Below, one piece after another: positions 8,503-33,483 of a DNA stretch of 64,000 nucleotides (positions within the stretch are counted from its first letter, which is position 1; each line of letters opens with the position of its first letter). Where the stretch lies: positions 1,612,001 to 1,676,000 of the forward strand of contig NZ_CP017244.1 in NCBI RefSeq assembly GCF_001908375.1. Reading direction: 5' to 3'. The notes below the pieces were generated by a model. That model was not told where the DNA came from and ran no database searches. It was given only the letters and a program-made list of their open reading frames with translations. The position numbers and the translations under genes are program-made. The stretch is from Rhizobium etli 8C-3. GTDB lineage: Bacteria > Pseudomonadota > Alphaproteobacteria > Rhizobiales > Rhizobiaceae.

Positions 8503-8612
8503 ACGAGGTCTCCCGGGCTTTTGTCCCGCCGTGCATCCGGCAGGATTTCTCGCCCACCGACGGCAGCTCTCGGACCAGCACGCTTTTCAAGCGCCGGAAC
8601 CCTAGCCACCAA
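8503..8612 (-). promoter_or_regulatory. Guanidine-I (ykkC class) riboswitch
   Basis: On the minus strand the leader contains, in order and correct spacing, the ykkC landmarks CTAGGGTTCCG (8605-8595), CTGGTCCGAGAG (8578-8567), and GGGACAAAAGCCCGGGAGA (within 8532-8509). These are the conserved core elements of the guanidine-I aptamer. Ligand binding would stabilise the 3' part of the aptamer and prevent the downstream terminator hairpin, turning on the transporter and carboxylase operon when guanidine is present. Confidence 0.93.
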
Positions 8613-8626
8613 CTCACCTTTATCGA

Positions 8627-14575: not shown

Positions 14576-14710
14576 TTTTTGTCTGACCGCTCTTGAACCT
14601 GAAAATTCCTCAACCAAATCAGTTCCGTCAGCTGCCCGTACGGAGCTGACTGCTGGAGGCGCAAGTTTCCATGCGTCTTCATTCCATGTTGCTTTACGGA
14701 GGATATGGCT
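14576..14710 (+). promoter_or_regulatory. ROSE-like RNA thermometer in the hsp20 leader
   Basis: The leader ends with TTGCTTTACGGAGGAT, the ROSE 3' signature in which a U-U-G-C-U strand pairs imperfectly with the Shine-Dalgarno. An upstream hairpin (GTCAGCT/AGCTGAC, 14627-14650) fits the first stem of ROSE leaders. Melting at high temperature should free the ribosome-binding site. Confidence 0.75.
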
Positions 14711-15196
14711 ATGAGAAACGAATTCGACTTCGCCCCCCTTTACCGGTCCAGCATCGGCTTCGACCGCGTCTTCAATCTCCTCAACAATGCGCAGCGGTTT
14801 CAAGCCGTCGATACCTGGCCGCCCTATGACATCGTCAAGCTAGGCGAGGACGAGTACCGCATAACCATGGCAGTTGCAGGCTTCGCCGAGGAAGACCTGT
14901 CGCTCACACACGAGCGAAATGTGCTCGTCGTTGCCGGTGCCAAGCCCGACAAGGAGGATATGCAATATCTGCATCACGGTATCGCCGGCCGGTCGTTCGA
15001 ACGACGTTTCGAGCTTGCCGACCATGTTAAGGTGCTTGGGGCGAGCCTGAAGAACGGCCTTCTATCGGTCGAGCTGAAACGCGAGATCCCCGAAGAGATG
15101 AAGCCGCGACGCATTGCTATCGGAACGAATGAGCCAAAGCGGGCCGAAGAGGCGACTGAGCCGCTGCAGATCGAAGGCGAAAAACAGGTGGCGTGA
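14711..15196 (+). CDS. Small heat-shock protein Hsp20 (IbpA-like)
   Basis: ATP-independent holdase chaperone of 161 aa in the alpha-crystallin family, cytoplasmic. The N-terminal FDFAPLYRSSIGFDRVF and the core WPPYDIVKLGEDEYRITMAVAGF are typical of class A rhizobial sHsps. The C-terminal part has RRFELADHVKV and NGLLSVELKREIP; a PRRIAI segment carries the I/V-x-I/V-like motif. Two in-frame ATGs exist (14705 and 14711). GGAGG at 14698-14702 is too close to the first and 8 nt from the second, so 14711 is preferred. Control is predicted to be double: CIRCE/HrcA at transcription and ROSE at translation. Confidence 0.92.
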   Translation: MRNEFDFAPLYRSSIGFDRVFNLLNNAQRFQAVDTWPPYDIVKLGEDEYRITMAVAGFAEEDLSLTHERNVLVVAGAKPDKEDMQYLHHGIAGRSFERRFELADHVKVLGASLKNGLLSVELKREIPEEMKPRRIAIGTNEPKRAEEATEPLQIEGEKQVA

Positions 15197-15252
15197 TCGA
15201 ACTTGGCAAAGGCCGCGCCGGTCTTTTCGGCTCGGCCGACATGGAGGCTTAG

Positions 15253-15495
15253 GTGAGGGACGTGATCTCACTCCCTGTGGCCACAGCAACAGTCAAGCTT
15301 CGACAGGCTACGCAAGCCATAGACCAGCATCCAGTCCTTGCGCTTCATCGCAAGATGAACAGGTTGTTCGATGATGATGTCTTGCGGTGTCGAGGGCGAT
15401 TGCCCGATCGTCAGGTCCGCTTTCGCTCCGAAATCGCCTGGACGAAGATGAAGTTGCGATGGTCTGCCAAGCGCATCACGATCAACAGCCAATGA
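15253..15495 (+). pseudogene. Degenerate N-terminal fragment of a second-class Hsp20 gene
   Basis: The 80-codon frame contains HPVLALHRKMNRLFDD, the N-terminal signature of class C-type bacterial Hsp20 proteins (usually NPFLALHREMNRLFDD). The alpha-crystallin core that should follow is absent and the frame ends after SAKRITINSQ. Placed directly behind the intact hsp20, it looks like the left-over of a tandem sHsp pair. Confidence 0.6.
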
Positions 15496-15599
15496 CCACT
15501 TTGCCGCTGTTGGATTTCGGTGGGTATCCTAACGACGACCGGCAGCGGCAGTCACTCGCATAGCCGCAGATGGAGTGCCAAACGAGGGAGGTGATTGAA

Positions 15600-15821
15600 A
15601 TGACTTTATCGTCAGGAGAGGTAAGGGCCATAATCGGTCCGGTGGACGAGGTCTTGCTTGCAGATATTTTGGCGACTGGAGCTTCGGCAAAGGAACTGGC
15701 AGAGGCCTGGGCCTGGGTGAATGCAGAGGAAGCTCTGGCCGATGAAGGCCGTCCGATGCCGACGGGAAGAATTGCGCGGCTCGTTGATCTGCTGGATCCC
15801 GGCCAGGAGAACGAACTGTGA
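15600..15821 (+). CDS. Small conserved acidic protein, function unknown
   Basis: A 73-aa protein (MTLSSGEVRAIIGPVDEVLL...). It has a GGGAGG ribosome-binding site 7-8 nt upstream of the ATG, good codon usage and an even helical pattern (ILATGASAKELAEAWAWVNAEEAL). No transmembrane segment or signal peptide is visible. It resembles small hypothetical proteins I associate with rhizobial stress regions, but I cannot assign a family or function. A frame open from 15570 would add 10 residues without a ribosome-binding site. Confidence 0.65.
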   Translation: MTLSSGEVRAIIGPVDEVLLADILATGASAKELAEAWAWVNAEEALADEGRPMPTGRIARLVDLLDPGQENEL

Positions 15822-16201
15822 AGCGCCGCTTGCCGTTTCTTTGTGCGACTGATTAGTGGAACGGATCGTGTGACAAATAGGCTGCGCGGCCTTGCGTGAC
15901 GCAAGAGCAGAACGCGGTGACAGCGTCGTCAGGAGCCCGCAGTTTCCAGGCAAGGACGGTGCGCGCGCCCCTTGGCTGTATATCCCGTGTTGCTCTGTGT
16001 TCGTGCTGCCGGCTTTCCCACTGCTCGGCCGGTCGATGGAACCGGCTCTTGACGCTATGCGGATGGATAGCGCTCCACGCGCAATCCTGAGCAGAAGAGG
16101 CGATCATTGTCGCCGAGATCGAGTACGATCGGCGGCGGTGGAGCCTTTCATAAGTCCACTTGGGCGCTATGCTCTCTCCAAGACCAACCTTAGGGTCCTT
16201 C
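15822..16201. other. Intergenic stretch, nothing recognised
   Basis: About 380 bp. Frames on both strands are short and without recognisable domains. Probably contains the promoter of the following small gene. Confidence 0.45.
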
Positions 16202-16471
16202 ATGACCGACCAATGTCGAAATCACTTTCGGGAAAGAATGACGATCCTCGGCGAACTTGACGCCGTCTCCTTCATTCCTTGGGTCCGACGCCATGCCGCT
16301 AAGCTCGGGCTTGCCCAGGCGATCGCCCATACCAGTTCCGAGCGGCTCGAGGTCGACATTGCCGGGCCCGTGGAGTTGATCGACATGATGGAGATCGCAT
16401 GTTTGCTCGGTCCCATCGATGTTTGGGTCGAGACAATCCACCGCACACCAATCGACAGGGGAACGGGCTGA
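16202..16471 (+). CDS. Acylphosphatase-like small protein
   Basis: An 89-aa protein (MTDQCRNHFRERMTILGELD...) with the acylphosphatase layout: a beta strand, then FIPWVRRHAAKLGL in the position of the family's FRxxxxxxAxxLGLxG helix, then a strand-helix-strand with EVDIAGPVELIDMMEIACLLG. The nucleophile-binding Arg near the N-terminus and the catalytic Asn expected in GWVRN are not clearly conserved (AQAIAHTSS instead). It may therefore be a catalytically altered member. The ATG at 16202 is preferred over one at 16160 because the extra N-terminus does not fit the fold. Confidence 0.55.
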   Translation: MTDQCRNHFRERMTILGELDAVSFIPWVRRHAAKLGLAQAIAHTSSERLEVDIAGPVELIDMMEIACLLGPIDVWVETIHRTPIDRGTG

Positions 16472-16504
16472 CCTGCGCATCTTGTGCCTTATATTTAATC
16501 AATA

Positions 16505-16552
16505 TTGCCAATGCGAAAAGATTATGCAAACGTGGCCGCGCTTGATTGGCAA
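16505..16552. promoter_or_regulatory. Inverted repeat TTGCCAAT/ATTGGCAA before the Rieske operon
   Basis: Exact 8-bp arms at 16505-16512 and 16545-16552, 32 bp apart, within the AT-rich promoter region of the operon that starts at 16616. It could be an operator with two half-sites on different helical faces. No regulator gene lies next to it, so the binding protein is unknown. Confidence 0.4.
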
Positions 16553-16615
16553 AATTGGACGCCTTGCCCCCGACTTTACCAACCAAGTGATTGATATTAC
16601 ATAGAAAGCCGAGTG

Positions 16616-17269
16616 ATGCTGTCTGACACGACGGGTTCCTGGACGCCAGTCGCCCTTTCCGCGGATTTGCCCAAGGGAACCGTTGTTCCAGCACGGACGC
16701 CAGCCGGGCAGATTGCCCTTTGGCGAAGTCGGTCGGGGCGCGTGGCAGCATCGGCCGACCGGTGTCCGCATCGCGGCATGCGCTTGTCTCACGGTTTCGT
16801 GCGTGGCGAGGCACTTTCGTGCATTTATCACGGCTGGAGTTACACCCGGACTGGAACCTGTCTGCGCATCCCGGCCCATCCGGGCCTCACTCCGCCCGAA
16901 ACGATCCGCTTGGAGACGCAACGGGTCGAAGAGTCTGACGGCGTCATCTGGGTTGGCGCCGGGCAACCTGTGGCCGGGCCCCCGCGGCTTGAAGGTCTGG
17001 TTCCATTGCGGTCCTTGGTGGCAGATGCCCGCACGCAGTTGGTCGAGGCTGCAGCGAACGGAAAGGCTGGCCCCAATGGCCTTGTCTGGCATGCGCACAA
17101 CGGCCAGACAATCCGGCTGTTGCTCGTTCCCCAAGACGCCGGCCAGACATTGATTCATGTCCTGCTTGACAAAGATAGCAGCCTGGCCGCGCGCATCGCC
17201 GCCTCACGGGCATCTGAAACTTTGCGGCGGATGGCCGAGGCGCTTCAGGCAAAAGGGAAAGCGTCATGA
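16616..17269 (+). CDS. Stand-alone Rieske [2Fe-2S] protein
   Basis: A 217-aa protein with a complete Rieske centre: CPHRGMRLSHG (C-x-H) and CIYHGWSY (C-x2-H) in the first 85 residues. The remaining ~110 residues contain no D-x2-H-x4-H mononuclear-iron motif, so it cannot be an oxygenase by itself. It overlaps the next gene by 4 bp (ATGA). That gene encodes an oxygenase domain lacking Rieske ligands, so this protein most likely supplies the missing cluster as electron donor. In the caffeine pathway the extra Rieske domain is part of the reductase NdmD; here it is separate and no flavin reductase is fused to it. A GTG immediately upstream is an alternative start. Confidence 0.85.
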   Translation: MLSDTTGSWTPVALSADLPKGTVVPARTPAGQIALWRSRSGRVAASADRCPHRGMRLSHGFVRGEALSCIYHGWSYTRTGTCLRIPAHPGLTPPETIRLETQRVEESDGVIWVGAGQPVAGPPRLEGLVPLRSLVADARTQLVEAAANGKAGPNGLVWHAHNGQTIRLLLVPQDAGQTLIHVLLDKDSSLAARIAASRASETLRRMAEALQAKGKAS

Positions 17270-18111
17270 GGCAAGACGCGATGATCAACGAGTGGTATCC
17301 CGTCGGCCTCTTCAGCCAGCTTGACATGGAGGGGCGCAAGACCGCCCTGATGGGAGAGCCTATCGAAGTGGCACTTGATGGCCACGGAAACATCAACGTG
17401 AAATCCAGCGACGGGCGATTTCTCCCGGTTTGTCTCCGATACGGCCATATATGGTCCTCTGTCGGCAAACCTCGAAAGGATCTTTTTTCAATTCCTGAGG
17501 CCGATCAGGCCGGCCGCCGCTTTGTCGATGTCGGTGTCGCTCGCGTGCGCTGCTCGCCGCTTCGCGCGGTGGAGAACTTTCTCGACATAGCGCATTTTCC
17601 CTTTGTTCATACCGACATTTTGGGCGCCGAGCCCCACACCGAAGTTCACGACTACAAGGTCGAAATCCGCGAAGAAGAAGACGAGGTCTGGGCCACGCAG
17701 GTCAAATTCTACCAACCGCAGGCTGCCAAGTCGGCAAGCGGCGGCATCACGACCGAATACATGTACCGCGTGCCGGCGCCGACTTGCTCCGTCCTTTACA
17801 AGACCTGTCCGCCTCGCCCCGGTGAATGGGATGTCATCGCTCTTTTCGTCCAGCCCCTTGCTGAAGACCTGTGTGACGTCTGGCCATGGATGGCGCTCTT
17901 CGACGATGCCACGCCGATGACCGATCTGATTCACTTTCAGCAGACGATCTTCCTTCAGGACCGGTCCATTCTCGAAAACCAGATCCCCAGGCTCCTGCCC
18001 CTCGATCCCGGAATGGAAATCCCCACCAGAGCCGACCTGACATCGATCGCTTACAGGCGCTGGCTGAAGCGCCACCACTACACCTATGGGGCACAATTGG
18101 TGGCGCAATGA
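17266..18111 (+). CDS. Rieske-less non-haem iron oxygenase, NdmC-like N-demethylase
   Basis: A 281-aa catalytic subunit. The short N-terminal part begins INEWYPVG like Rieske oxygenases but has none of the cysteine or histidine cluster ligands. The mononuclear iron motif is ENFLDIAHFPFVHTDILG. The C-terminal half (YKTCPP, ALFVQPLAEDL, IPRLLPLDPGMEIPTRAD, YRRWL) resembles, from memory, NdmC of Pseudomonas putida CBB5. NdmC removes the N7-methyl of 7-methylxanthine and likewise has lost its Rieske centre, relying on partners NdmD and NdmE. A Rieske protein lies directly before and a GST-like protein directly after, matching that logic. The substrate here is inferred, probably an N-methylated purine or similar heterocycle. 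Confidence 0.75.
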   Translation: MRQDAMINEWYPVGLFSQLDMEGRKTALMGEPIEVALDGHGNINVKSSDGRFLPVCLRYGHIWSSVGKPRKDLFSIPEADQAGRRFVDVGVARVRCSPLRAVENFLDIAHFPFVHTDILGAEPHTEVHDYKVEIREEEDEVWATQVKFYQPQAAKSASGGITTEYMYRVPAPTCSVLYKTCPPRPGEWDVIALFVQPLAEDLCDVWPWMALFDDATPMTDLIHFQQTIFLQDRSILENQIPRLLPLDPGMEIPTRADLTSIAYRRWLKRHHYTYGAQLVAQ

Positions 18112-18767
18112 AGCTCTATGATTACGTTCTCTCGCCCAGTTGCTACAAAGTTCGCCTGATGGCGGCATTGGCCGGCGTGAAGCTGGAAATCCGGCCGGTC
18201 GACTTTCATCCCGGCGCCGAGCACCGCAGCATCGAGCTCATGGCGATCAATCCGGCGGGCTCGATCCCGATCTTCGAAGATGGCGATCTGATCCTGACTG
18301 AATCCGCCGCCATACTGACCTACCTCGCCGCCAAGGCGGCGCCAAGGTGGCTAGGCAGCGGCACGCCGGAAGAAACGGCGTGCGTCCAGCAGTGGCTTTC
18401 CTTCTCACACCGGCTGACCGCCAACCTCGGAGGTGCGCGCCTTCATGAAATGCTTCTGCGGCCGGGAGACATCGCCTCGCTTCAAGCACACGGGATCGCC
18501 GCGCTTCGCGAACTGGAAGCGAAGCTTGTCGAGCGGGGCTTGCGAGGATTTCGGTTCCTGGCGTCGAACCACCCGACAATTGCCGATATCGCGTGCTTTC
18601 CCTACGTGGCGCTCGCCCCGGATGGCGGCATCTCGCTCGACCCCTATCCCACCATCAGGCTCTGGTCGCGTGCAATCCGCAGCCTCGACAATTTTATCGA
18701 GATGCCTGGCATCCACAGGCTGCACGAATTAAAGCCCGACCCCTGCGTTCAACCGGACGAGGTGTGA
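18108..18767 (+). CDS. Glutathione S-transferase-like protein (NdmE-like position)
   Basis: A 219-aa GST-fold protein. The thioredoxin-like N-terminus is MKLYDYVLSPSCYKVRLMAA, with the cis-Pro region NPAGSIPIFEDGD and the ESAAI glutathione-site motif (LTESAAILTYLA), followed by an all-helical C-terminal domain (FLASNHPTIADIACF with the conserved N-capping Asp). It overlaps the oxygenase stop by ATGA. In the NdmCDE complex a GST-like protein, NdmE, is structural, holding NdmC and NdmD together. The same order here suggests that role, although a genuine glutathione transferase or isomerase activity cannot be excluded. Confidence 0.85.
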   Translation: MKLYDYVLSPSCYKVRLMAALAGVKLEIRPVDFHPGAEHRSIELMAINPAGSIPIFEDGDLILTESAAILTYLAAKAAPRWLGSGTPEETACVQQWLSFSHRLTANLGGARLHEMLLRPGDIASLQAHGIAALRELEAKLVERGLRGFRFLASNHPTIADIACFPYVALAPDGGISLDPYPTIRLWSRAIRSLDNFIEMPGIHRLHELKPDPCVQPDEV

Positions 18768-18768
18768 C

Positions 18769-20148
18769 TTGGGCGGTCATCTCCTGACGAATTGTGCTGC
18801 CGTCATCGCCAACGATGGCGAGGGGCTGCGTGTGTGCCGGAACGTGGACCTGCTGACGAACGGTCCTTCGATCGTTGCAATCGGCGAAAATCTCCGCAAA
18901 GGAGGGCTGCCGGCCGGGACCATCACTCAGGACGCGACCGGCTGGTTCGTCTATCCGGGGCTCGTCAATACCCACCACCACTTCTTCCAATGCTTTGTGC
19001 GCAACCGGGCGGAGCTCGACTGGACGAAGCTTTCGGTCATCGAATGGCTTGATCGCATCTATCCAATCTTCTCGCACCTGACCGAGGACTGCTTTTATCA
19101 TGCCTCCGTCACCGCCATGGCGGAGATGATCAAGCACGGCTGCACGACGGCCTTCGACCACCAGTACTGCTTCCCGCGCCGAGCTGGCAAGCAACTGATC
19201 GACCGTCAGTTCGAGGCAGCCGAGCTGCTGGGCATGCGCTTTCATGCGGGCCGCGGTGGCAACACGCTGCCGAAGTCCGAAGGTTCGACCATCCCGGACG
19301 CCATGCTGGAGACGACGGACGAATTCATCGCCGACTGCGCGCGCCTGATCGACACTTACCACGATGCAAACCCCTTCAGCATGCGGCAGGTCGTGGTCGC
19401 GCCTTGCCAGCCGGTCAACTGCTATAGAGAGACATTCGTCGAGGCAGCAGCGCTGGCCCGCGACCGCAGCGTGCAGCTCCATACCCATGTCGGCGAAGGC
19501 GAAAGCCCCGTCATCGAGGCTCGACACGGCATGAGGACGGTCGATTACTGCGAAGAACTCGGATTTGCCGGTCCCGATACCTTTTATGCCCATTGCTGGG
19601 AACTCACCCATGACGAACTGCGCATGATGGCGGCAAGCGGCACCGGTGTCTCCCACTGCCCCGAGCCGGTCTATCTGGTCGGCGCCGAGGTCACCGATAT
19701 TCCCGCCATGTCGGCCTTCGGTCTCCGTGTCGGACTCGGCTGCGATGGAGCCGCCTCGAACGACAATTCAAACCTGATGCATTGCTTGCACTCCGCCTAC
19801 ATGCTGCAGTGTTTGACAGCCTCGACACGCGCGCATCCCGTCCCGCCTCCGGTCGATTTTCTCGGCTATGCGACAACCGGCGGGGCAGCCCTCCTCGGCC
19901 GCCGGGATATCGGCCGGCTTGCTCCGGGCATGGCCGCCGACCTGTTTGCAATTGACACCCGGCGCATGGATTACATCGGCACGCGGCATGACCCGCTGAG
20001 CCTGATTGCCAAAGTAGGCGTCGGAATGCCGACCGACATGACAATGATCAACGGACGCATCGTCTGGGCCAAGGGCGAGTTCATCGGGCTCGATGAACTG
20101 GCGCTGTTTTCCGAAGCCGAGGCTGCACTCGCAACTGTGGAATTCTAA
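18769..20148 (+). CDS. Amidohydrolase, 8-oxoguanine/guanine deaminase family
   Basis: Zinc-dependent deaminase of 459 aa in the COG0402 branch with 8-oxoguanine and isoxanthopterin deaminases. Metal and catalytic motifs are VNTHHHFFQ (HxH), LHTHVGEGE, AHCWEL and GLGCDGAASNDNSN (catalytic Asp). It begins with TTG at 18769, one base after the GST stop, with GAGG at 18757-18760; no ATG fits. Its place between the demethylase genes and a nucleobase-type transporter suggests it deaminates an aminopurine, for example turning 7-methylguanine into 7-methylxanthine before demethylation. That substrate is a hypothesis; the family call is firm. Confidence 0.85.
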   Translation: MGGHLLTNCAAVIANDGEGLRVCRNVDLLTNGPSIVAIGENLRKGGLPAGTITQDATGWFVYPGLVNTHHHFFQCFVRNRAELDWTKLSVIEWLDRIYPIFSHLTEDCFYHASVTAMAEMIKHGCTTAFDHQYCFPRRAGKQLIDRQFEAAELLGMRFHAGRGGNTLPKSEGSTIPDAMLETTDEFIADCARLIDTYHDANPFSMRQVVVAPCQPVNCYRETFVEAAALARDRSVQLHTHVGEGESPVIEARHGMRTVDYCEELGFAGPDTFYAHCWELTHDELRMMAASGTGVSHCPEPVYLVGAEVTDIPAMSAFGLRVGLGCDGAASNDNSNLMHCLHSAYMLQCLTASTRAHPVPPPVDFLGYATTGGAALLGRRDIGRLAPGMAADLFAIDTRRMDYIGTRHDPLSLIAKVGVGMPTDMTMINGRIVWAKGEFIGLDELALFSEAEAALATVEF

Positions 20149-20172: not shown

Positions 20173-21273
20173 ATGCTGAAAAACCTCACCCGCAGAACAT
20201 TGATGAAGGCTGTTGCCGCCTCCGGCCTCGCAGGCGCGCTTGGCGGCCGCACTTCCATGGCAGCCGACGAGCCGCTCGGCATTTCCCTCGTGATCCCCTC
20301 GCCGGTGGGCGACGTTGGCTGGGGACATGCCCTTGCCGCCGGTCTCGAACCCGTCAAGGCCGCGTACGGCGACAAAGTAAAGGTCACGGTCATCGAGAAC
20401 ATTCCGGAGGGTCCGGATGCCGACCGCATCATGAACAAGACGGTTGCCGACGGAAACAAATTCCTGATCGCCGGCTCCTTCGGCTATCAGAACGGTGCCC
20501 TGCAGATTGCCCGCCGGAATCCGGCGGTCACCGTGCTGCATGCCTCCGGTTTCCAGGTAGCACCGAACTTTTCGCCCTTCGCAGCCAAGTATTTTCAGGG
20601 AACCTATCTGCTTGGCATGGCAGCCGCTGCGCTCTCCAAGACCGGCAAGCTAGGCTCGGTGTCCGCCTTTGCCATTCCCGAACTGATCACGTCCATCAAC
20701 GCCTTTACGCTCGGTGCTCAGTCGGTGAAACCGGATATCGAAGTGTCGGTCGTGTGGGTGAACTCGTGGTTCGATCCGGCCAAGGAGCAGGAAGCCGCAA
20801 AGGCGCTGATGGCACAGAAGTGCGATGTGATCTTTTCCAATGCGCAGGACACGCCGTCGGTCATCTCGGCTTGCGAGGAAGCTGGCGTTTACGCGTTCAA
20901 CCTCAACTCGTCGATGAAGAAGTACGCGGCCAAGACCTATCTCGGCTGTGTCGCCACCGACTGGTCGCCGTTCTTCAAGGCCTCGGTGGACGCTCATATC
21001 GCCGGCACGTTCAAAGGCGGCAATGCCTTCCTCGGCGTCGCTGAAAAGGTCGTCGAGGTTGCAGACTGGAATCCGGATATCCCGGCCGACGTCATGACGA
21101 AAATCAAGGAGATCGAGGCGAAGATCGCCAGCGGCAGCTTCACTCCCTTCACAGGGCCGATCACCAAGGCCGATGGCAGCGATGCGGCACCGTCTGGTGC
21201 AACGCTCACTGATGGCGAGGTCGTCGCCATGAATTGGCACGTCAAGGGTGTCACGACGCCTCTGCCGAAGTGA
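20173..21273 (+). CDS. BMP-family ABC transporter substrate-binding protein
   Basis: A 366-aa periplasmic lipoprotein-like or Tat-exported binding protein of the BMP/PnrA family, which binds nucleosides, purine bases and related ligands. The N-terminus carries TRRTLMKAVAASGLAGALGG, a plausible twin-arginine signal, with cleavage near SMAADEP. Characteristic segments are SPVGDVGWGHALAAGLE and EGPDADRIMNKTVADGNK. It lies 24 bp after the deaminase gene and begins the four-gene transporter BMP-ATPase-permease-permease. The twin arginine implies export in folded form. Confidence 0.9.
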   Translation: MLKNLTRRTLMKAVAASGLAGALGGRTSMAADEPLGISLVIPSPVGDVGWGHALAAGLEPVKAAYGDKVKVTVIENIPEGPDADRIMNKTVADGNKFLIAGSFGYQNGALQIARRNPAVTVLHASGFQVAPNFSPFAAKYFQGTYLLGMAAAALSKTGKLGSVSAFAIPELITSINAFTLGAQSVKPDIEVSVVWVNSWFDPAKEQEAAKALMAQKCDVIFSNAQDTPSVISACEEAGVYAFNLNSSMKKYAAKTYLGCVATDWSPFFKASVDAHIAGTFKGGNAFLGVAEKVVEVADWNPDIPADVMTKIKEIEAKIASGSFTPFTGPITKADGSDAAPSGATLTDGEVVAMNWHVKGVTTPLPK

Positions 21274-21276
21274 GCC

Positions 21277-22800
21277 ATGACCGTTCCGCTCCTGTCGCTG
21301 CGCGGCATTTCCAAGAGCTACGGCCAGAACCGGGCCAATCAAGCCATAGACCTGGACGTGGCCCCCAAGTCGATCCATGCAGTCCTCGGAGAAAACGGGG
21401 CGGGTAAATCGACACTGATGAAGGTGATCTATGGCGTCGAACAACCGGACAGCGGAGCCGTTATCTGGGAAGGAGAACCTTTGAGCCTCGCATCCCCTGC
21501 GCAGGCAAGGCGCAAGGGCATCGGAATGGTCTTTCAGCACTTCTCGCTGTTCGAGACCCTGACGGTGGTGGAGAACACGCAACTGGTCGTTCCGGGCCGG
21601 AAAGCCGAACTTACTGATGCCATCGGCAAGCTCGGACGCGACTTCGGGCTCGAAGTCGATCCGCTTGCCCATGTGCACACGCTTTCCGTCGGCGAGCGGC
21701 AGCGGGTGGAGATCATCCGCTGTCTGCTGACAAACCCGAAACTGCTGATCCTCGACGAGCCGACCTCTGTCCTGCCGCCGCAATCGGTGGAGAGACTCTT
21801 CGAGACATTGCGTCGCCTGCGCGACGATGGCGTCTCCATTCTCTTCATCTCGCATAAACTGGAGGAAATCCGCGCGATCTGCGACAGGGCAACCATTCTG
21901 CGCGGCGGGTGCGTTACCGGGCATGTGGATCCGCGAAAACACGATGCTCATGACCTGGCCCGCATGATGATCGGCCGCGACATGCCGGAGCCCCTGCCGG
22001 CGTTGCCCATTTCTGGCGGGGAAAAGCGGCTTGAGATCATTGGCCTCGACTATCGGCCGGATGACCCCTTTGCCATGCCGCTCTCCACTTTAAGCCTCAC
22101 GGTTCGTTCGGGCGAAATCCTCGGCATAGCCGGAATTTCCGGCAACGGGCAGAGCGAGCTTGCTTCGCTCATTTCCGGCGAAGTGGTCCTGCCAGGAGAA
22201 CAGCGTGAGCGGATCTACATGATGGGAAAGGACGTGAGCACGCTCAATGCGGCTGCTCGCCGGCAGCTTGGATTTGCCTTCGTTCCCGAAGACCGGCTTG
22301 GGCGTGGCGCCGTACCCGAAATGTCGCTCACCCAAAACAGCCTGCTGACCGCTCATCCGCTCAACCTTCTCCGTTACGGTCTCGTCGACGAGCCGAAGGC
22401 GATGACATTCACCAATGAGTGCATTCGCCAGTACGATGTCCGCACGCCCGGCCCAGGGGTCGAAGCCGGCTCTCTTTCTGGCGGCAATCTGCAGAAATTC
22501 ATCGTCGGCCGAGAGATCATGCTGTCTCCCAAACTGCTTTTCATCGCACAGCCGACATGGGGCGTCGATATCGGCGCAGCATCGGCCATCCGCAGGCGGC
22601 TTGTCGGGCTGCGTAACGAAGGCATGGCGATCCTCATCATTTCAGAGGAACTCGAAGAGCTTTTCGAACTCTGCGATTTCATTCAGGTGTTGCACCACGG
22701 CGTGCTGAGCCCGGCTCTCGTTACGCGGGACACGCGGCCGGAGGACATCGGCCGATATATGATCGGTGCGTATTCTTCGCAGGAGAAGGCTCCAGCATGA
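21277..22800 (+). CDS. ABC transporter ATP-binding protein (nucleoside/sugar type, two ATPase domains)
   Basis: A 507-aa duplicated ATPase. The first domain has Walker A GENGAGKST, signature LSVGERQRVEIIRCLL and Walker B LLILDEPTSVL. The second has the altered Walker A GISGNGQSE, signature LSGGNLQKFIVGREI and a degenerate Walker B LLFIAQPTWGVD, in which the usual Asp-Glu is replaced by Ala-Gln, so the second site probably does not hydrolyse ATP. This asymmetry is usual for the RbsA/YufO-like family. It starts 3 bp after the binding-protein gene and overlaps the next permease by ATGA. Confidence 0.92.
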   Translation: MTVPLLSLRGISKSYGQNRANQAIDLDVAPKSIHAVLGENGAGKSTLMKVIYGVEQPDSGAVIWEGEPLSLASPAQARRKGIGMVFQHFSLFETLTVVENTQLVVPGRKAELTDAIGKLGRDFGLEVDPLAHVHTLSVGERQRVEIIRCLLTNPKLLILDEPTSVLPPQSVERLFETLRRLRDDGVSILFISHKLEEIRAICDRATILRGGCVTGHVDPRKHDAHDLARMMIGRDMPEPLPALPISGGEKRLEIIGLDYRPDDPFAMPLSTLSLTVRSGEILGIAGISGNGQSELASLISGEVVLPGEQRERIYMMGKDVSTLNAAARRQLGFAFVPEDRLGRGAVPEMSLTQNSLLTAHPLNLLRYGLVDEPKAMTFTNECIRQYDVRTPGPGVEAGSLSGGNLQKFIVGREIMLSPKLLFIAQPTWGVDIGAASAIRRRLVGLRNEGMAILIISEELEELFELCDFIQVLHHGVLSPALVTRDTRPEDIGRYMIGAYSSQEKAPA

Positions 22801-23897
22801 GGGCTTTATTTGCAGCTATCCTTCCCACCCTTGTCCGTCGGGAGCGCGCCTCGCTGACCGCCACCTTGCTTGCGCCTGCCGTTGCGCTGGGGGTGGCTAC
22901 CATTTTCAATCTCGGACTCTACGTGTTGATGGGCCGTGATCCGATCGCCGTCTTCTACGCGATGCTCCTAGAACCCTTCCTCTCCTGGGCGTCGTTCTCG
23001 GAAGTCATGCTGAAGACGGGCCCCCTTCTCCTCATCGCGCAGGGCCTGGCGATCGGCTTTCGCGCCAAGGTCTTCAACATCGGTGCCGAGGGCCAGTTCA
23101 TTCTGGGTGCGATCTTCGCCTCGGCCATCCCCGTATGGTTGCCGCAGGCGACGGGTCAATGGATTTGGCCACTGATGCTGGTCCTTGGCGCACTCGGTGG
23201 TGCTTCATGGGCATCGCTAACGGCCTTGTGGCGCGTCAGGCTCAATGCGAACGAGATCCTCGTTTCCCTGATGCTGAGCCTCGTTGCCGCGCAATTGCTC
23301 AACTACCTGCTGCTTGGTCCCTGGAAGGATCCCAACGGGTTTAACTTTCCTCAGTCTGTGATGTTCCAGTATGACGCGATGGTGCCGATCTTGATCTCCG
23401 GCACCCGCATCAACGTTTCCCTGCTCCTGACGATCGTCTTATCGATGGCGGCGTGGATCTTCATGCAGAAGAGCTTCTCCGGCTATAGGCTCCAGGTCGT
23501 CGGCCTCGCGCCGCGTGCCGCCGGCTACGCCGGTTTCAATGAAGGCCGGGCGATCTGGCTTTCCCTTCTCATTGGCGGCTGCGCCGCAGGGCTTGCTGGC
23601 GCAGCCGAGGTTGCCGGTCCCCTCGGCCAGTTGCAGCGCTCGATTTCGACGGGTTATGGCTATGCGGCTATTATCGTCGCCTATCTCGGCGGACTGCATC
23701 CAATCGGGATCATGGTCTCTGCACTGTTCATGGCGGCGCTCTACATCGGGGGGGACAATGCCATGGTGTCGGCAAACTTGCCGATTGCCGCGGTCCGCGT
23801 ATTTCAAGGCAGTCTCCTCGTCGCCTATCTCATCGCCGTCGCCTTCGTGCGGTACCGTCTCGAATGGCGCCTTTCCGTCTACCGGAGCCAGCCATGA
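22797..23897 (+). CDS. ABC transporter permease (BMP/nucleoside type), subunit 1
   Basis: A 366-aa inner-membrane permease of the YufP/NupP group in the branched-chain/ribose permease superfamily. Eight or more hydrophobic helices are visible, with the conserved FRAKVFNIGAEGQFILGAI near residue 90 and SGYRLQVVGLAPRAAGYAGF around residue 225. Both overlaps with neighbours are 4 bp, so the operon is tightly coupled. It should pair with the next gene to form the heterodimeric channel. Confidence 0.92.
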   Translation: MRALFAAILPTLVRRERASLTATLLAPAVALGVATIFNLGLYVLMGRDPIAVFYAMLLEPFLSWASFSEVMLKTGPLLLIAQGLAIGFRAKVFNIGAEGQFILGAIFASAIPVWLPQATGQWIWPLMLVLGALGGASWASLTALWRVRLNANEILVSLMLSLVAAQLLNYLLLGPWKDPNGFNFPQSVMFQYDAMVPILISGTRINVSLLLTIVLSMAAWIFMQKSFSGYRLQVVGLAPRAAGYAGFNEGRAIWLSLLIGGCAAGLAGAAEVAGPLGQLQRSISTGYGYAAIIVAYLGGLHPIGIMVSALFMAALYIGGDNAMVSANLPIAAVRVFQGSLLVAYLIAVAFVRYRLEWRLSVYRSQP

Positions 23898-24805
23898 ACG
23901 CCATCGAATTCATCCTTGCCGGGATGCTCGCGGCTGCGACACCGTTCCTGCTTGCAGCTCTCGGCGAGCTGGTGGTCGAGCGAGCCGGGGTTCTCAACCT
24001 CGGCGCCGAGGGTTTGATGGCGTTCGGTGCGGTGCTGGCCTTCATCATCGTCTATCATGGTGGGAGCCATCTTTTGGGTTTCGTCGCCGCCGGTCTCGGC
24101 AGCGCCGCACTTTCAATCGTATTTGCCGTCGTCGCGGTCGGACTTCGTGCAAACCAGGTAGCGACAGGCCTTGCGATCGGCATTCTCGGCCAAGGCCTCT
24201 CGGCGCTCTTCGGCAAGACTTATGAAAGCCTTACGGTCAGGGGGCTTCCAAAGTTCGCCTTTCCCTGGCTTTCCGATATTCCAGTGATCGGCCACCTTTT
24301 CATCCAAGATGCCGTCGTCTGGCTTTCCCTTGCCGCAACATTCGCCATCTGGGCGATGTTTGCCTATACGAAGGCCGGTCTTGTCGTCCGGGCGATCGGC
24401 GAAAATCCCAAAGCCGCCCATGCTGTCGGATATTCAGTCATCGCCGTCCGCTTCGCCGCTATCGCCTTCGGCGGAACGATGGCAGGGTTTGCCGGCGCCT
24501 ACGCCTCAGTCGTCTACACACCGCTTTGGGCCGATGGGATGATCGCCGGTCGTGGCTGGATCGCAATCGCCCTCGTGGTCTTCGGGACGTGGCTCACGGG
24601 TCGGATCTTTCTAGGCGCGTGCCTCTTCGGAGCCGTGTCACTGACGGGGCTCGCAGCCCAGGCGGCCGGACTGGACGTCCCATCACAACTGCTGGCGAGC
24701 CTACCCTATCTCGTCACGATTATCGTGCTGGGCATCATTTCGGCAGACCGCCGCCTGCTTAAGCTGAATGGCGTCGCATCGCTCGGCGAGCCTTTCGAAC
24801 GCTAG
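23894..24805 (+). CDS. ABC transporter permease (BMP/nucleoside type), subunit 2
   Basis: A 303-aa permease, partner of the preceding subunit. The motif GVLNLGAEGLMAFGAVLAF parallels FNIGAEGQF of its partner, and VVRAIGENPKAAHAVGYSV is the cytoplasmic coupling loop. The start at 23894 overlaps the upstream stop (ATGA); the frame is open further upstream but inside the neighbour. It is the last gene of the Rieske/deaminase/importer operon. Confidence 0.92.
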   Translation: MNAIEFILAGMLAAATPFLLAALGELVVERAGVLNLGAEGLMAFGAVLAFIIVYHGGSHLLGFVAAGLGSAALSIVFAVVAVGLRANQVATGLAIGILGQGLSALFGKTYESLTVRGLPKFAFPWLSDIPVIGHLFIQDAVVWLSLAATFAIWAMFAYTKAGLVVRAIGENPKAAHAVGYSVIAVRFAAIAFGGTMAGFAGAYASVVYTPLWADGMIAGRGWIAIALVVFGTWLTGRIFLGACLFGAVSLTGLAAQAAGLDVPSQLLASLPYLVTIIVLGIISADRRLLKLNGVASLGEPFER

Positions 24806-25008: not shown

Positions 25009-25045
25009 AAAAAGGCATCGGCATTGGCGCAAATTGATGCTTTTC
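25009..25045. promoter_or_regulatory. Shared operator, copy 1 (AAAAAGGCATC-N16-GATGCTTTTC)
   Basis: Imperfect palindrome with arms AAAAAGGCATC (25009-25019) and GATGCTTTTC (25036-25045), spacer 16 bp, about 55 bp before the creatininase-family start. The same arms and the same spacer length occur at 26919-26955. The rest of the 24806-25099 intergenic region holds no gene. Confidence 0.7.
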
Positions 25046-25099
25046 GCATGCACGCAGGTTCCCTACTCAATAGGGGAAGGCCAAGGAAGGGATGCGGCA

Positions 25100-25897
25100 A
25101 TGGCGATGCCATTTTACTGGAACGAGCTCAATACCTCTGATTTCGCGGCGCTATCTTGCGACACGACGATAGCCATCCTGCCGATAGCGTCGACAGAACA
25201 GCATGGGCCGCATCTGCCAATCGCCACCGATGTCGCAATCGCAAACGGAATGCTTGCGGCGTTGCGCAAGGAGCGGCCCGAAGACCTCGACATACTGGTC
25301 CTGCCGACACAGGAGATCGGCAAGGCGAATGAACATATCTATGGCCCTGGCACGCTTTCGCTTGGTGCCGAACTCTTGATCCCGGTCTGGACAGCGATTG
25401 GTGCAAAGGTCGCGGAAGCTGGCATCCGCAAAATGGTGATCGTCAATTCGCATGGCGGCAATGTCGACATTATGAGCATCGTCGCGCGCGAACTGCGCGT
25501 CCGTCACCAGATGGCCGTGCTGTCGACGCAGTGGGGACGGTTCGGAAATCCGGAAGGCATGATCAGCGAACACGAAGCAAAATATGGTATTCACGGCGGC
25601 GAGGTGGAGACCTCCCTGATGCTGCATTTCCGGCCGGACCTAGTGCGCATGGACAAGGCGCAGAATTTTGCCTCGAAAGCCGAATGGATGCGAGAACTGT
25701 CGAAATATATTCAGCCTCTACCCCCACATTCTTTGGCGTGGATTGCGCATGATCTCAATCCCAACGGCGTCGTCGGCGACGCCTCGCGCGGCACGGCGGA
25801 AAAGGGCGCAGCCATCTGCCGCCATCAAGTAAAGGGCTTCATCGAGATGCTCTATGATCTGAAGCACTATCCTCTTTCAAATCTCTTCACGAAGTAA
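25100..25897 (+). CDS. Creatininase-family amidohydrolase
   Basis: A 265-aa metal-dependent hydrolase of the creatininase/FAPy-deformylase (ArfB)/MftE family. The metal-binding and catalytic motifs are STEQHGPHLPIATDVAIA near residue 33, VNSHGGN near residue 119 and HGGEVETS near residue 168. Family members open small cyclic amides or deformylate a formamidopyrimidine, so a ring-opening or deformylation step in heterocycle breakdown is plausible. The start at 25100 is preferred by the GGAAGG upstream; a frame open from 25034 runs through the operator and leader. It faces the LysR gene and carries the same operator in front as the neighbouring ABC operon. Confidence 0.88.
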   Translation: MAMPFYWNELNTSDFAALSCDTTIAILPIASTEQHGPHLPIATDVAIANGMLAALRKERPEDLDILVLPTQEIGKANEHIYGPGTLSLGAELLIPVWTAIGAKVAEAGIRKMVIVNSHGGNVDIMSIVARELRVRHQMAVLSTQWGRFGNPEGMISEHEAKYGIHGGEVETSLMLHFRPDLVRMDKAQNFASKAEWMRELSKYIQPLPPHSLAWIAHDLNPNGVVGDASRGTAEKGAAICRHQVKGFIEMLYDLKHYPLSNLFTK

Positions 25898-25899
25898 GG

Positions 25900-26850
25900 T
25901 CAACCGGCTGCCGGCTTGTCGGGCGTGATGTGACCCTTGACCTGAAGTTCCTTTACAAGACCGGCAAGCTCTGCCAGCAGGTATTCCACGAACAGGCTGG
26001 TTGCAGCGTCCAGCGGCGCACGCACACGGGCAAACAACTTCATCGGCTGCTGGCGCGCATGCGGCTCGGCGACCGGACGGAAAACCAGTTCCCCCTTTCG
26101 GCACTCGGTGATCACGTCGAGCGGATTGAGCATCGATAACCCTGCCCCGCATTTCACCAGCTTCTTCAGCATCTCCGAAGCATTGGTCTCGAGCACCGGC
26201 TCGACATGAACATCGAGCCGCGCGAGGGCAAGATTGATCACTTCGCGCAGGCTGGTGCCCTGTTGGGCCAGCACCAGTCGTTCCTGCACCACGTCTGTCA
26301 GGTTGATCGGGCCGGGACCGATAAGCCGATGGCCAGGTGGCAGGACGACACCGATCGGGATATCGAAAGTTCCGAGAGTGCGTATTCCAGGTGTCGCCGG
26401 AATATTGAAGCCGAGGCCGATATCCACCTCACCCGACAGCACGGGATTGACCGTCATCGTGCCGGCATCATTCCTGATCTGGAAGAATACACGCGGATGC
26501 TCCAACTGAAATCGGCTGATGATTTCCGCCAGGGGCCCGGCGGCAAGCCCGACCGTCGTTACCAGACGCACCTTGCCCGCCTGCTGCATCCTCAGACTGC
26601 GGATGCGGCCCTCCAAACGATCGTAATTCTTCAGAACCTCACGAATGTGTTCTATGCACAGTTCGCCCGCCGCAGTCAGCCTGAGGCCGCGCGGCAGGCG
26701 CTCGAAGAGCGGAGCGCCCATTTCCGCTTCCAGCGCCAGGATCTGCCGATTGATGGCAGAGGAAGCGACGTTCAATCGCGCCGCTGCCTTGCGGATAGAG
26801 CCCGACCGCGCAATTTCGTTAATGTAGAGAAGCTTCCTGGAATGCAGCAT
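25900..26850 (-). CDS. LysR-family transcriptional regulator
   Basis: A 316-aa regulator. The winged helix-turn-helix at residues 1-60 (MLHSRKLLYINEIARSGSIR, AAARLNVASSAINRQILALE) precedes a periplasmic-binding-protein-like effector domain. The start at 26850 has GAGGG upstream; ATGs at 26868 and 26964 lack a ribosome-binding site. It is divergent from the ABC/deaminase operon starting at 27036 and convergent with the creatininase gene, ending 3 bp away. It is the natural candidate to bind the repeated operator at 25009 and 26919 and to respond to the transported heterocycle. Confidence 0.9.
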   Translation of the reverse strand: MLHSRKLLYINEIARSGSIRKAAARLNVASSAINRQILALEAEMGAPLFERLPRGLRLTAAGELCIEHIREVLKNYDRLEGRIRSLRMQQAGKVRLVTTVGLAAGPLAEIISRFQLEHPRVFFQIRNDAGTMTVNPVLSGEVDIGLGFNIPATPGIRTLGTFDIPIGVVLPPGHRLIGPGPINLTDVVQERLVLAQQGTSLREVINLALARLDVHVEPVLETNASEMLKKLVKCGAGLSMLNPLDVITECRKGELVFRPVAEPHARQQPMKLFARVRAPLDAATSLFVEYLLAELAGLVKELQVKGHITPDKPAAG

Positions 26851-26912
26851 CGCGCGCCCTCGGTGCATCAAATTTAAGCACGCAGCCCAAATTCGGAACG
26901 CGCACCGTTTGA

Positions 26913-26955
26913 GATGCCAAAAAGGCATCGTTGCGCACGAATTTTGATGCTTTTC
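26913..26955. promoter_or_regulatory. Shared operator, copy 2, in the divergent LysR/ABC promoter
   Basis: AAAAAGGCATC (26919-26929), 16 bp, GATGCTTTTC (26946-26955), the same architecture as at 25009-25045. An additional half site gives a second palindrome, GATGCC-N5-GGCATC (26913-26929). It lies about 65 bp upstream of the LysR start and 80 bp upstream of the ABC binding-protein start, a typical LysR autoregulation position. Confidence 0.7.
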
Positions 26956-27035
26956 AAAGAGCAACGCAATCGCTCAAATAAAGAAAATGGGATGCCGGTA
27001 GGGGCAATCCCTGGCACAATAGGGGAAAGCCGAAC

Positions 27036-28052
27036 ATGTCCAATGCACTGAAAAAGATTGCACTCACCGCATTGCTTGGTCTCGGGACCGCGATTGCCAC
27101 GGCCGTGCCGGGCCACGCACTCGACAAGGTAAGCTATGGCACCAACTGGCTGGCGCAGGCCGAGCATGGCGGCTTCTACCAGGCGCTCGCCGACGGCACC
27201 TACGAGAAGTATGGTCTCGACGTCACCATCGTTCAGGGCGGGCCGAATGCAGCAAACAGCGCGCTGCTGATATCCGGCAAGATCGACTTCTACATGGGCG
27301 GTTCACAGGGCGAAATCACCGCCGTCGAGCAAGGCATTCCTTTGGTGGATGTGGCAGCCATCTTCCAGAAAGACCCGCAGGTGCTGATTGCGCATCCTGA
27401 TGCCGGCATCGACACCTTCGAGGATCTGGCCAAGCTGAAGACGTTCTTCCTCGGCAAGGACGGTTACCTGACCTACTTCGAGTGGATGAAATCCAATTAC
27501 AAAGGCTTCAAGGACGAACAGTACAAACCCTACAACTTCAATCCTGGACCGTTCATCGCCGACAAGGAGTCTGCCCAGCAGGGCTACCTGACGTCCGAAC
27601 CCTACGAAATCCAGAAGCAGACCGGCTGGGAGCCGAAGGTGTTCCTGCTCGCCGACAACGGCTATACCCCATACTCCACGATGATCACGACGACCCAGAT
27701 GATGATCGACACGAAACCGGACGTCGTCCAGCGCTTCGTCGATGCCTCGATCGAAGGTTGGTACAATTACCTCTACAGTGACAACAGCAAGGCGAATGAA
27801 CTGATCAAGAAGGACAATCCGGAAATGACGGATGGTCAAATCGCCTATTCGATTGCCAAGATGAAGGAATTCGGCATCGTTGAATCCGGCGACGCCATGG
27901 ACAAGGGCATCGGCTGCATCACTGGCGCGCACTACAAGAAGTTCTTCGACGAAATGGTGGCGATCAAGATCTTCAAGGCAGACACGGATTATACCAAGGC
28001 CTTTACGACCAAGTTCGTCTGCAAGGGCACCGGCATGTCGCTGAAAAAGTAA
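27036..28052 (+). CDS. ABC transporter substrate-binding protein, NMT1/THI5-like
   Basis: A 338-aa periplasmic protein with a signal peptide (MSNALKKIALTALLGLGTAI, cleavage after GHA near residue 28). VSYGTNWLAQAEHGGFYQAL follows, the signature of NMT1/THI5-like binding proteins such as those for pyrimidines and thiamine precursors. Downstream segments LLISGKIDFYMGGS and ITTTQMMIDTKPDVVQRFV agree. A leader stretch CAATAGGGGAA just before the start is shared with the creatininase gene and supplies the ribosome-binding site. A pyrimidine-like or related N-heterocycle ligand is likely but not shown. Confidence 0.9.
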   Translation: MSNALKKIALTALLGLGTAIATAVPGHALDKVSYGTNWLAQAEHGGFYQALADGTYEKYGLDVTIVQGGPNAANSALLISGKIDFYMGGSQGEITAVEQGIPLVDVAAIFQKDPQVLIAHPDAGIDTFEDLAKLKTFFLGKDGYLTYFEWMKSNYKGFKDEQYKPYNFNPGPFIADKESAQQGYLTSEPYEIQKQTGWEPKVFLLADNGYTPYSTMITTTQMMIDTKPDVVQRFVDASIEGWYNYLYSDNSKANELIKKDNPEMTDGQIAYSIAKMKEFGIVESGDAMDKGIGCITGAHYKKFFDEMVAIKIFKADTDYTKAFTTKFVCKGTGMSLKK

Positions 28053-28125
28053 GCCACAGGGCTGTGTGAAGAGCTTGCCGCGCCCCAGCGTCAAGCTGCA
28101 TCCTCTTCAAACAAAGAGACCCGCA

Positions 28126-28953
28126 ATGCCCCTAGCCGAAGTCCAGACGGCGCCGCTGGCTGAAAAACGCAAACGGCCGCTGGTCGCCATGCAATCCGTT
28201 TCGAAGGTTTTCTCCAGCGGGACGGTCGCGCTTTCCGGCATGTCGCTCACGGTCGAGACTGGCGAGTTCATCAGCCTGCTCGGCCCGTCGGGTTGCGGCA
28301 AGTCGACTGCGCTTCGCATCATCGCCGGCCTTGGTGATATCACGTCCGGCAGCATCGACTGGCCAAGTTCGCGCATCAACGCAAAGGGACTTCCCGAAGG
28401 CGATATCGGTTTCGTCTTCCAGGAGCCGACGCTGATGCCGTGGAAGAACGTCTTCGGCAATGTCCATCTGCCGCTGAAGCTGCGCGGCATTTCAAAGGCC
28501 GCGGCCAGCGATCAGATCATGAGCGCGCTCGCGACCGTCGGCTTGCAGGATTTCGCCGGCGCCTATCCGCGCGAGCTTTCTGGCGGCATGAAGATGCGCG
28601 TCTCGATCGCCCGTGCGCTCGTAACCAAGCCGAAACTACTTTTGATGGACGAACCCTTCGCGGCACTCGACGAAATCACCCGACAGAAGCTGAACGACGA
28701 TGTATTGCGGCTCTGGAAGGAGACGGGCATCACCGTGATCTTCGTCACCCACTCCGTCTTCGAATCGGCCTATCTGTCTAGCCGCATCGTTGTCATGAAG
28801 GCGCGCCCCGGCCGGGTTCACGCAGATCTTTCGCTTGTGACGAGCCGCGAGCGCGACGCGCATTATCGCACCTCGGAAGAATACCGGCGCGCCTGCGAAA
28901 CGGTCTCCCATTCGCTGATCGGGGCAATCAACGCTGCAAAGGAAGATCGTTGA
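28126..28953 (+). CDS. ABC transporter ATP-binding protein (NitT/TauT type)
   Basis: A 275-aa ATPase. Walker A is GPSGCGKST, signature LSGGMKMRVSIARAL, Walker B LLLMDEPFAALDE and H-loop VTHSVFE. The start at 28126 (MPLAEVQTAP) is an ATG close to a GAGA. A GTG at 28066 would add 20 residues and cannot be excluded. The gene lies between the binding protein and permease of the same transporter and overlaps the region just before the permease start. Confidence 0.9.
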   Translation: MPLAEVQTAPLAEKRKRPLVAMQSVSKVFSSGTVALSGMSLTVETGEFISLLGPSGCGKSTALRIIAGLGDITSGSIDWPSSRINAKGLPEGDIGFVFQEPTLMPWKNVFGNVHLPLKLRGISKAAASDQIMSALATVGLQDFAGAYPRELSGGMKMRVSIARALVTKPKLLLMDEPFAALDEITRQKLNDDVLRLWKETGITVIFVTHSVFESAYLSSRIVVMKARPGRVHADLSLVTSRERDAHYRTSEEYRRACETVSHSLIGAINAAKEDR

Positions 28954-28955
28954 AG

Positions 28956-31108: not shown

Positions 31109-31109
31109 C

Positions 31110-33097: not shown

Positions 33098-33483
33098 AAA
33101 ACTTTAGCAGCCGTCACTTCGACCTCGACCAGAAATTCCGGCCGGGTGAAGCCACTGACGATGATCAGCGTCGACGTGGGCTTCACGTCCGCGGTAAAGC
33201 GGTCGCGGACGGCCATATAAGCTGGGAAATCCTCGCGCCGCGTCACGAATCCCGAAATACGGATGACATCGGCAAAGCTCATTTCTGCCTCTTCGAGTAT
33301 AGCCCTAATCGCTTCAAAGCACATCTCGGCCTGCCCTGTCACAGTCCCGGGCACCGTCTCATCAAGGCAGATCCCGAGTTGGCCGGATGTCACCAGCAAC
33401 GAAGCTCCCGGGGGCACCAGGAGGCCGTGATTATAGTTTCCGAAGGGTCGGCGGACCGACGGTGGATTGAAAACTTTCGTCAT
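33094..33483 (-). CDS. RidA family protein
   Basis: A 129-aa YjgF/YER057c/UK114-type protein. Segments LLVTSGQLGI, GQAEMCFEAIRAILEEAEMS and IISGF-like VIRISGFVTR fit, as does the C-terminal VSGFTRPEFLVEVEVTA. RidA proteins hydrolyse enamine/imine intermediates, and one member, RutC, acts in pyrimidine breakdown. It is convergent with the flavodoxin gene rather than co-transcribed. The catalytic Arg expected near the C-terminus (here TRPEFLVEVE) is present. The start at 33483 has GAGG upstream. Confidence 0.85.
   Translation of the reverse strand: MTKVFNPPSVRRPFGNYNHGLLVPPGASLLVTSGQLGICLDETVPGTVTGQAEMCFEAIRAILEEAEMSFADVIRISGFVTRREDFPAYMAVRDRFTADVKPTSTLIIVSGFTRPEFLVEVEVTAAKVF

Follow-up and report, generated by a model that had tools for sequence, protein, structure and literature searches.

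A 64,000-nucleotide stretch of the Rhizobium etli 8C-3 genome (contig NZ_CP017244.1, positions 1,612,001 to 1,676,000; hereafter the window) contains, at positions 16616-18767, three adjacent genes that encode a stand-alone Rieske protein, an oxygenase without a Rieske centre and a glutathione S-transferase (GST)-like protein. Taken as a whole, the locus is best explained as encoding a Rieske mono-oxygenase whose alpha subunit is present as two complementary, eroded copies and which would act in purine N-demethylation, a reading based on sequence comparisons and structure models to which we assign a probability of about 0.6. The three-part composition had been proposed in an earlier sequence-only reading of this DNA and is borne out by the open reading frames (ORFs) and their Pfam domains: the first protein matches the Rieske domain (PF00355, 1.6e-20), the second only VanA_C, the vanillate-demethylase catalytic domain (3.2e-20), and the third GST_N (8.3e-17). 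All three ORFs are on the + strand and, as that reading had also stated, each overlaps the next by 4 bp, with ATGA at both junctions.

Together, the two proteins hold a complete set of Rieske non-haem-iron ligands, CxH...CxxH for the cluster and the iron ligands plus bridging Asp for the mononuclear site; the Rieske and catalytic sites are on two proteins and not, as usual in Rieske non-haem-iron oxygenases, on one alpha chain. The Rieske ligands C50, H52, C69 and H72 are invariant in 29 close rows (alignment A4); in a wider alignment (A2, 28 rows) C69 is not invariant, one Komagataeibacter protein having lost that residue. At the iron site of the oxygenase, D107, H110, H115 and D232 are invariant in 51 rows (alignment A3). 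The iron motif quoted in the sequence-only reading, ENFLDIAHFPFVH, corresponds to oxygenase residues 103-115, and a Rieske motif was found in none of 69 Rieske-less oxygenase rows. The Rieske protein fits the Rieske domains of alpha subunits (SxtT, 5.2e-24) better than ferredoxins (best match 2.3e-6), and its tail is a metal-less remnant of a catalytic domain that NdmD-type proteins also have in their N-terminal half. The oxygenase, for its part, has kept the Rieske barrel and lost the cluster loops. A profile comparison of the A4 Rieske rows with the A3 oxygenase rows aligned 38 columns only, in the N-terminal strands (E 4e-5, probability 70). Judged from sequences and models, each of the two proteins resembles a copy of the same Rieske oxygenase alpha subunit, eroded in the part that the other has kept. 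The Rieske centre is thus free-standing and without a fused reductase, as first proposed, but its carrier looks like an eroded whole alpha subunit rather than merely a small Rieske protein. SxtT/GxtA, NdmA/NdmB and dicamba monooxygenase share the fold of the two window halves and, unlike this split pair, are single-chain alpha subunits. In a Komagataeibacter from kombucha (L084, 6787-7320), the gene for the Rieske protein that lacks a cluster cysteine adjoins that of a diverged Rieske-less subunit.

Conservation was assessed in 80 loci, the best 80 of 186 confirmed stretches in a species-level genome collection and hence close relatives. Rieske and GST genes flank the oxygenase gene in all 80; the Rieske/oxygenase overlap is 4 bp in 64 loci, 1 bp in 14, 8 bp in one and 19 bp in one, and the oxygenase/GST overlap is 4 bp in 79. 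With tblastn, the Rieske and GST genes match in all 80 loci, and the amidohydrolase and BMP genes, located further downstream, in 79. The features of the window operon are as follows.

16202..16471, +: acylphosphatase-like companion, 89 amino acids (aa), without two usual acylphosphatase catalytic residues; PF00708 at E 4.4e-4, just under the cut-off
16505..16529, no strand assigned: conserved block TTGCCAATGCGAAAAGATTATGCAA with outer dyad TTGC/GCAA, a putative operator from its conservation in related loci
16616..17269, +: stand-alone Rieske half (alpha' subunit), 217 aa, Rieske domain plus metal-less catalytic-domain remnant
17266..18111, +: catalytic half (NdmC-like), 281 aa, with the mononuclear-iron domain and a remnant of the Rieske barrel that lacks the cluster loops
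18108..18767, +: NdmE-type GST-like protein
18769..20148, +: amidohydrolase, guanine/8-oxoguanine deaminase-like
20173..21273, +: BMP-family periplasmic binding protein, best solved relative AtzT (a guanine binder)
21277..22800, +: ATPase of an ATP-binding cassette (ABC) transporter
22797..23897, +: ABC permease 1
23864..24805, +: ABC permease 2, an ORF with a match in 80 of the 80 loci

The block TTGCCAATGCGAAAAGATTATGCAA is present ~110 bp before the Rieske gene in 66 of the 80 loci and nowhere else on the + strand of 1.6 Mb; it has one match in the window versus none in 100 shuffles, and is absent from 12 more distant loci checked. An Rfam scan of positions 15200-17300 for a riboswitch ahead of the operon returned no match up to E 1.

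Oxygenase homologues number 3,027 at E<=1e-3 among 3,501 candidates; the observation is not a matter of chance. A careful tree was built from 61 rows thinned from 94. Among the 33 left out are koHyp, L206, L182 and one L120 row, removed for their length or odd position; a quick tree puts all four inside the Rieske-less clade. The careful tree unites all 49 of its Rieske-less rows in a single clade (100/99), with the unsplit, BMP-linked oxygenases of family f193, a clade of their own (100/99), as sister. NdmC and its kin form a clade of six rows (100/97), and the window clade, 29 rows that include forms II, III and IV (described below) and the Komagataeibacter rows (99/99), joins them at 92/88. 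The quick tree of all 94 rows has the same outline, with weaker values for the last two supports (93 and 86, SH-aLRT). A placement of the oxygenase away from NdmC, named in the sequence-only reading as evidence that would count against it, was therefore not obtained; the proposed likeness to NdmC stands as 44% identity and a sister clade, and not as membership of the NdmC clade. One HpxD outgroup row falls away from the window clade, and the window oxygenase chain has no Rieske ligands. The Rieske tree (72 rows) sets fused and C-R-E proteins (94) apart from R-C-E ones (80), with three long rows standing apart, and joins fused, free and unsplit forms at an unordered node, which gives no direction for gain versus loss of the reductase fusion.

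An NdmC-type profile matches in 58 of 247 sampled genomes of the window's family (E<=1e-60), in 11 of 385 genomes of the class (E<=1e-20), where three have only longer two-domain oxygenases, leaving eight, and in 16 of 398 genomes of the phylum (E<=1e-60), one of which has an unsplit oxygenase (G694), leaving 15. Reading the loci distinguished five architectures. In form I, one or more oxygenases accompany a fused Rieske-reductase and a GST, an arrangement seen in NdmCDE and, among others, on the Klebsiella plasmid L083 and in S. meliloti (L086). Form II, with the order Rieske, oxygenase, GST and no reductase, includes the window, Qingshengfaniella (L085) and members of families f25, f150 and f164; in two form II loci (L146 and L178) the Rieske-GST pair is divergent from the oxygenase gene. 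The order is oxygenase, Rieske, GST in form IIb (L120, L121, L126). In form III (L193-L196) a separate VanB-type reductase follows Rieske, oxygenase and GST, and the Komagataeibacter locus L084 has two split sets separated by a reductase. In form IV, a single Rieske gene and a single GST gene are enclosed by two oxygenase genes that lie 14-16 kb from each other; this form was fully read in G403 (L214, L215) and G968 (L221), and was assigned in other genomes from the flanks of the oxygenase genes. The split composition marks a large clade rather than a local oddity and is a new variant of the NdmCDE type. Of the earlier proposal of a new composition in a rhizobium, the composition holds, no prior description having been found in the literature searched, but the clade spans several alphaproteobacterial families and is not confined to one rhizobium. 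In that literature, which did not extend to subscription papers such as Summers 2013, no account of a free-standing Rieske half was found.

The closest described system is NdmCDE of Pseudomonas putida CBB5, which has in common with the window a Rieske-less oxygenase, a Rieske half on another protein, an NdmE-type GST and a tight gene cluster; the P. putida NdmC record M1EY73, named methylxanthine N7-demethylase, is the protein with 44% identity to the window oxygenase. PMC4408171 presents NdmCDE as the first described case of a Rieske domain separated from its oxygenase, and PMC10380055 describes a 3:3:3 complex of NdmC, NdmD and NdmE. In the window, unlike NdmCDE, the Rieske half is free-standing and its gene precedes the oxygenase gene, there is no fused flavin mononucleotide (FMN)/NADH/2Fe-2S reductase, an acylphosphatase-like gene is added, and a BMP-type importer and a deaminase adjoin. 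Fused ndmCDE homologues of Sinorhizobium (L086) and others, described as of unknown function in PMC4408171, resemble the window in their Rieske-less oxygenases, GST and, in most loci read, adjoining BMP ABC genes, but have Rieske and reductase parts in one protein of ~590 aa, often two oxygenase genes, and no acylphosphatase-like gene in any of 19 loci. On plasmid pPp1290 (L082, 14850-16605) the annotation divides the Rieske and reductase parts over three separate ORFs, which may be the pieces of a broken fused gene. The four-gene form III loci, and the related arrangement in Komagataeibacter L084, share the oxygenase clade and the first three genes with the window and differ in the stand-alone VanB-type reductase gene after the GST gene. 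The unsplit f193 oxygenase (L222-L242), sister of the Rieske-less subunits, differs in having both domains on one chain of ~328 aa; a BMP gene adjoins it in 17 of 20 loci, no GST-like ORF was matched in the short flanks, and query relatives are present in 41 of 120 family f193 genomes. To NdmCDE the window clade thus adds a Rieske/oxygenase split without reductase fusion, an evolutionary reading of it as complementary erosion of two subunit copies, a near unsplit relative and an overlooked fourth gene.

This fourth gene, missed in the sequence-only reading, is a conserved acylphosphatase-like gene upstream of the Rieske gene (16202-16471). The window protein scores 20.9 bits, below the Pfam gathering score of 22.5, and its L085 homologue 23.7, above it; no solved structure matched at E<=1. 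The conserved core consists of G17, L35, G55 and LGP, and the positions equated by eye with Arg and Asn, which we take to be the acylphosphatase catalytic residues, are not conserved in alignment A6. The gene is present upstream of the Rieske gene in 79 of the 80 loci. Of 17 additional form II loci taken from the genome samples, 15 have it, the exceptions being L133 and L135. In a more distant set, 10 of 13 form II loci carry the gene (all but L122-L124), as do the two form IV loci and the two of form III whose flanks are long enough (L216, L217); the short form III loci L193-L196 do not extend to its position. One locus, L142, belongs to both form II sets, the 17 and the 13. It is absent from 19 form I, three form IIb and 21 unsplit loci, the last mostly with 1.5-kb flanks. 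Across the 247 genomes, matches at E<=6.1e-20 occur in 41, the next best being 2.8e-11. These strong matches fall in 41 of the 42 genomes with an NdmC-type gene that are not fused-only, in none of the 16 fused-only and in none of the 189 without an NdmC-type gene; we sorted the 42 and 16 from read loci. G569, whose locus was not read, was assigned to the 42 by default, and G591 was placed with the fused-only genomes although a further oxygenase gene in it (L182) is of unclear type. Exact-test values for this co-occurrence are inflated by shared ancestry, and weight is put on the counts. In 40 of the 41 genomes the gene shares a contig with an oxygenase gene. Clustering of neighbouring ORFs of at least 110 aa in the 80 loci recovered the acylphosphatase-like ORF in 46 and its antisense shadow in 33, with other families in at most 29, and Pfam identified regulators, transporters and unrelated enzymes among the flanking ORFs of other loci, several ORFs having no family. 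From the co-occurrence, we take the acylphosphatase-like protein to be a probable partner, without catalytic activity, of the free Rieske half.

The window GST is 58% identical to that of Qingshengfaniella, 37-43% to four GSTs from the clusters of Klebsiella, S. meliloti and Komagataeibacter and 24% to a generic GST. The proposed likeness to NdmE is supported by this higher identity to the GSTs of related clusters, the comparison being with those four clusters and not with CBB5 NdmE itself. The fusion to an FMN/NADH/plant-type 2Fe-2S reductase that characterizes NdmD is absent, as the 217-aa Rieske protein ends after its tail. A reductase partner, for which the sequence-only reading had suggested a search, was not found near the operon in the 80 loci (some cut by contig ends) with Komagataeibacter VanB-type and Pantoea HpxE queries (tblastn, 1e-15), and none was accepted in the window genome. 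There, the best VanB-type reductase (35% identity, C4:1767016) was not taken as the partner, being located among genes that, read from their ORFs, are presumably a dimethylamine-type demethylation cluster; the second match, part of a 703-aa protein, was likewise set aside. Over 33 genomes, the form III reductase matched at 74-100% in four form III genomes and at 44-48% inside fused proteins in six. The 25 genomes of forms II and IV have only 29-41% VanB-type matches (17 genomes) or none at E<=1e-20 (eight), so that, by this first look, which may miss distant reductases, systems of the window type do not regularly include a VanB-type reductase of their own.

The surrounding genes point to a purine. 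The closest solved relative of the BMP protein is AtzT (5e-80), for which PMC6834077 reports a structure that held guanine, the tightest ligand tested (~110 nM). The amidohydrolase is nearest to 8-oxoguanine deaminase-type entries and is a probable purine deaminase of the pathway, judged from these matches. Near other members there are genes for HpxO (L082), allantoinase (L085) and the xanthine dehydrogenase family (L086). The motif [FY]VHTDILG after the first iron-binding histidine is common to the window clade, NdmC, S. meliloti C2 and form IV, and is not found in the unsplit relatives or C1. With this motif shared and residues 203-213 different (see below), the substrate is read as related, not identical, to that of NdmC. 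Purine N-demethylation by the window complex is plausible on these grounds, with N-methylated guanine or xanthine as first choice of substrate; the purine context thus favours the N-demethylase idea of the sequence-only reading, and residues 203-213 argue against a simple equation with NdmC.

In the proposed mechanism, the Rieske half and the oxygenase would be neighbours in a mixed oligomer, held together by the GST as proposed for NdmE, and electrons would pass between subunits, from the Rieske cluster of one chain to the iron of its neighbour, via bridging Asp107. The Rieske half may receive its electrons from a general, not a dedicated, reductase or ferredoxin. A purine base imported by the BMP-type ABC system would be the substrate, the most likely reaction being oxidative demethylation of an N-methylpurine such as 7-methylguanine or, once the amidohydrolase has acted, 7-methylxanthine, and the demethylated product would feed the ordinary purine pathway. 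The system makes testable both electron crossing between subunits when the half-sites sit on different chains and the range of purines oxidised or demethylated by rhizobia and other soil bacteria.

Several observations weigh against this reading. Oxygenase residues 203-213, in a strand near the C-terminus (CDVWPWMALFD in the window clade), differ from those of NdmC, so that the substrate need not be 7-methylxanthine, and the amidohydrolase scores 373 bits, short of the NCBIfam 8-oxoguanine deaminase equivalog cut-off of 532. The five models of the Rieske protein spread from 61.4 to 87.9 in predicted local distance difference test score (pLDDT), with an alignment of only 29 close rows, and residues 112-122 of the oxygenase model are below 50. 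The helper role of the acylphosphatase-like protein is drawn from co-occurrence; stand-alone-Rieske loci L122-L124 and the genome G395 do not have the gene, nor does L051, and G497 has it on another contig than its oxygenase gene. An alternative that we consider unlikely, though deserving of attention, is hydroxylation of a purine ring carbon, such as C8 of guanine or xanthine, with the amidohydrolase then deaminating the 8-oxo product to urate. The relatedness of HpxD-type enzymes, annotated on the plasmid as xanthine hydroxylase subunits (28% identity), the likeness of the amidohydrolase to 8-oxoguanine deaminases and the guanine-binding type of importer all fit such a reaction, but the oxygenase is far closer to NdmC (44%), and FVHTDILGAEP after the first iron-binding histidine is common to the window oxygenase and NdmC and differs in HpxD and the unsplit relatives.

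The Rieske protein could also be an ordinary Rieske ferredoxin that serves a complete oxygenase elsewhere, the NdmC-like protein not being catalytic. Small Rieske proteins are usually ferredoxins; the better match to alpha-subunit Rieske domains, the NdmD-type tail, the adjoining NdmC-like gene in all 80 close loci and the iron ligands of the NdmC-like protein, invariant in 51 rows, make this very improbable here. The least probable account is that the stand-alone state reflects decay of an NdmCDE system that has lost its reductase and is inactive: the operon has no reductase and eight of the 25 genomes gave no VanB-type match at E<=1e-20, but metal ligands are invariant in the aligned rows, gene overlaps are kept over the 80 loci and the clade is wide. 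Extending the preferred reading of two eroded alpha-subunit copies, we offer tentatively a modular machine in which a free electron-delivery half, derived from a worn alpha subunit, would serve one or two exchangeable catalytic halves on a GST scaffold, with a dead acylphosphatase-fold fourth subunit that would bring in a general electron donor and so take the place of the covalent reductase. Such a machine would serve to import and demethylate modified guanine, for instance N7-methylated guanine, released by RNA and DNA turnover in soil. The exchangeable catalytic halves are suggested by the single Rieske and GST genes beside two catalytic genes in G403 and G968.

Elsewhere in the window, a Guanidine-I riboswitch is predicted at 8508-8616 (-), above the gathering score, and two ROSE thermoregulators at 14628-14717 (+) and 53429-53537 (+), the first of which overlaps the start of an HSP20 ORF at 14705. 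Downstream of the operon, positions 25034-33519 hold a second possible catabolic cluster, with a creatininase family protein, LysR, an NMT1-type ABC importer, amidohydrolase 3, a FAD-binding oxidase, a flavodoxin-like protein and an L-PSP family member, the LysR and NMT1 names being our own reading; its first genes match in only 3 of the 80 related loci.
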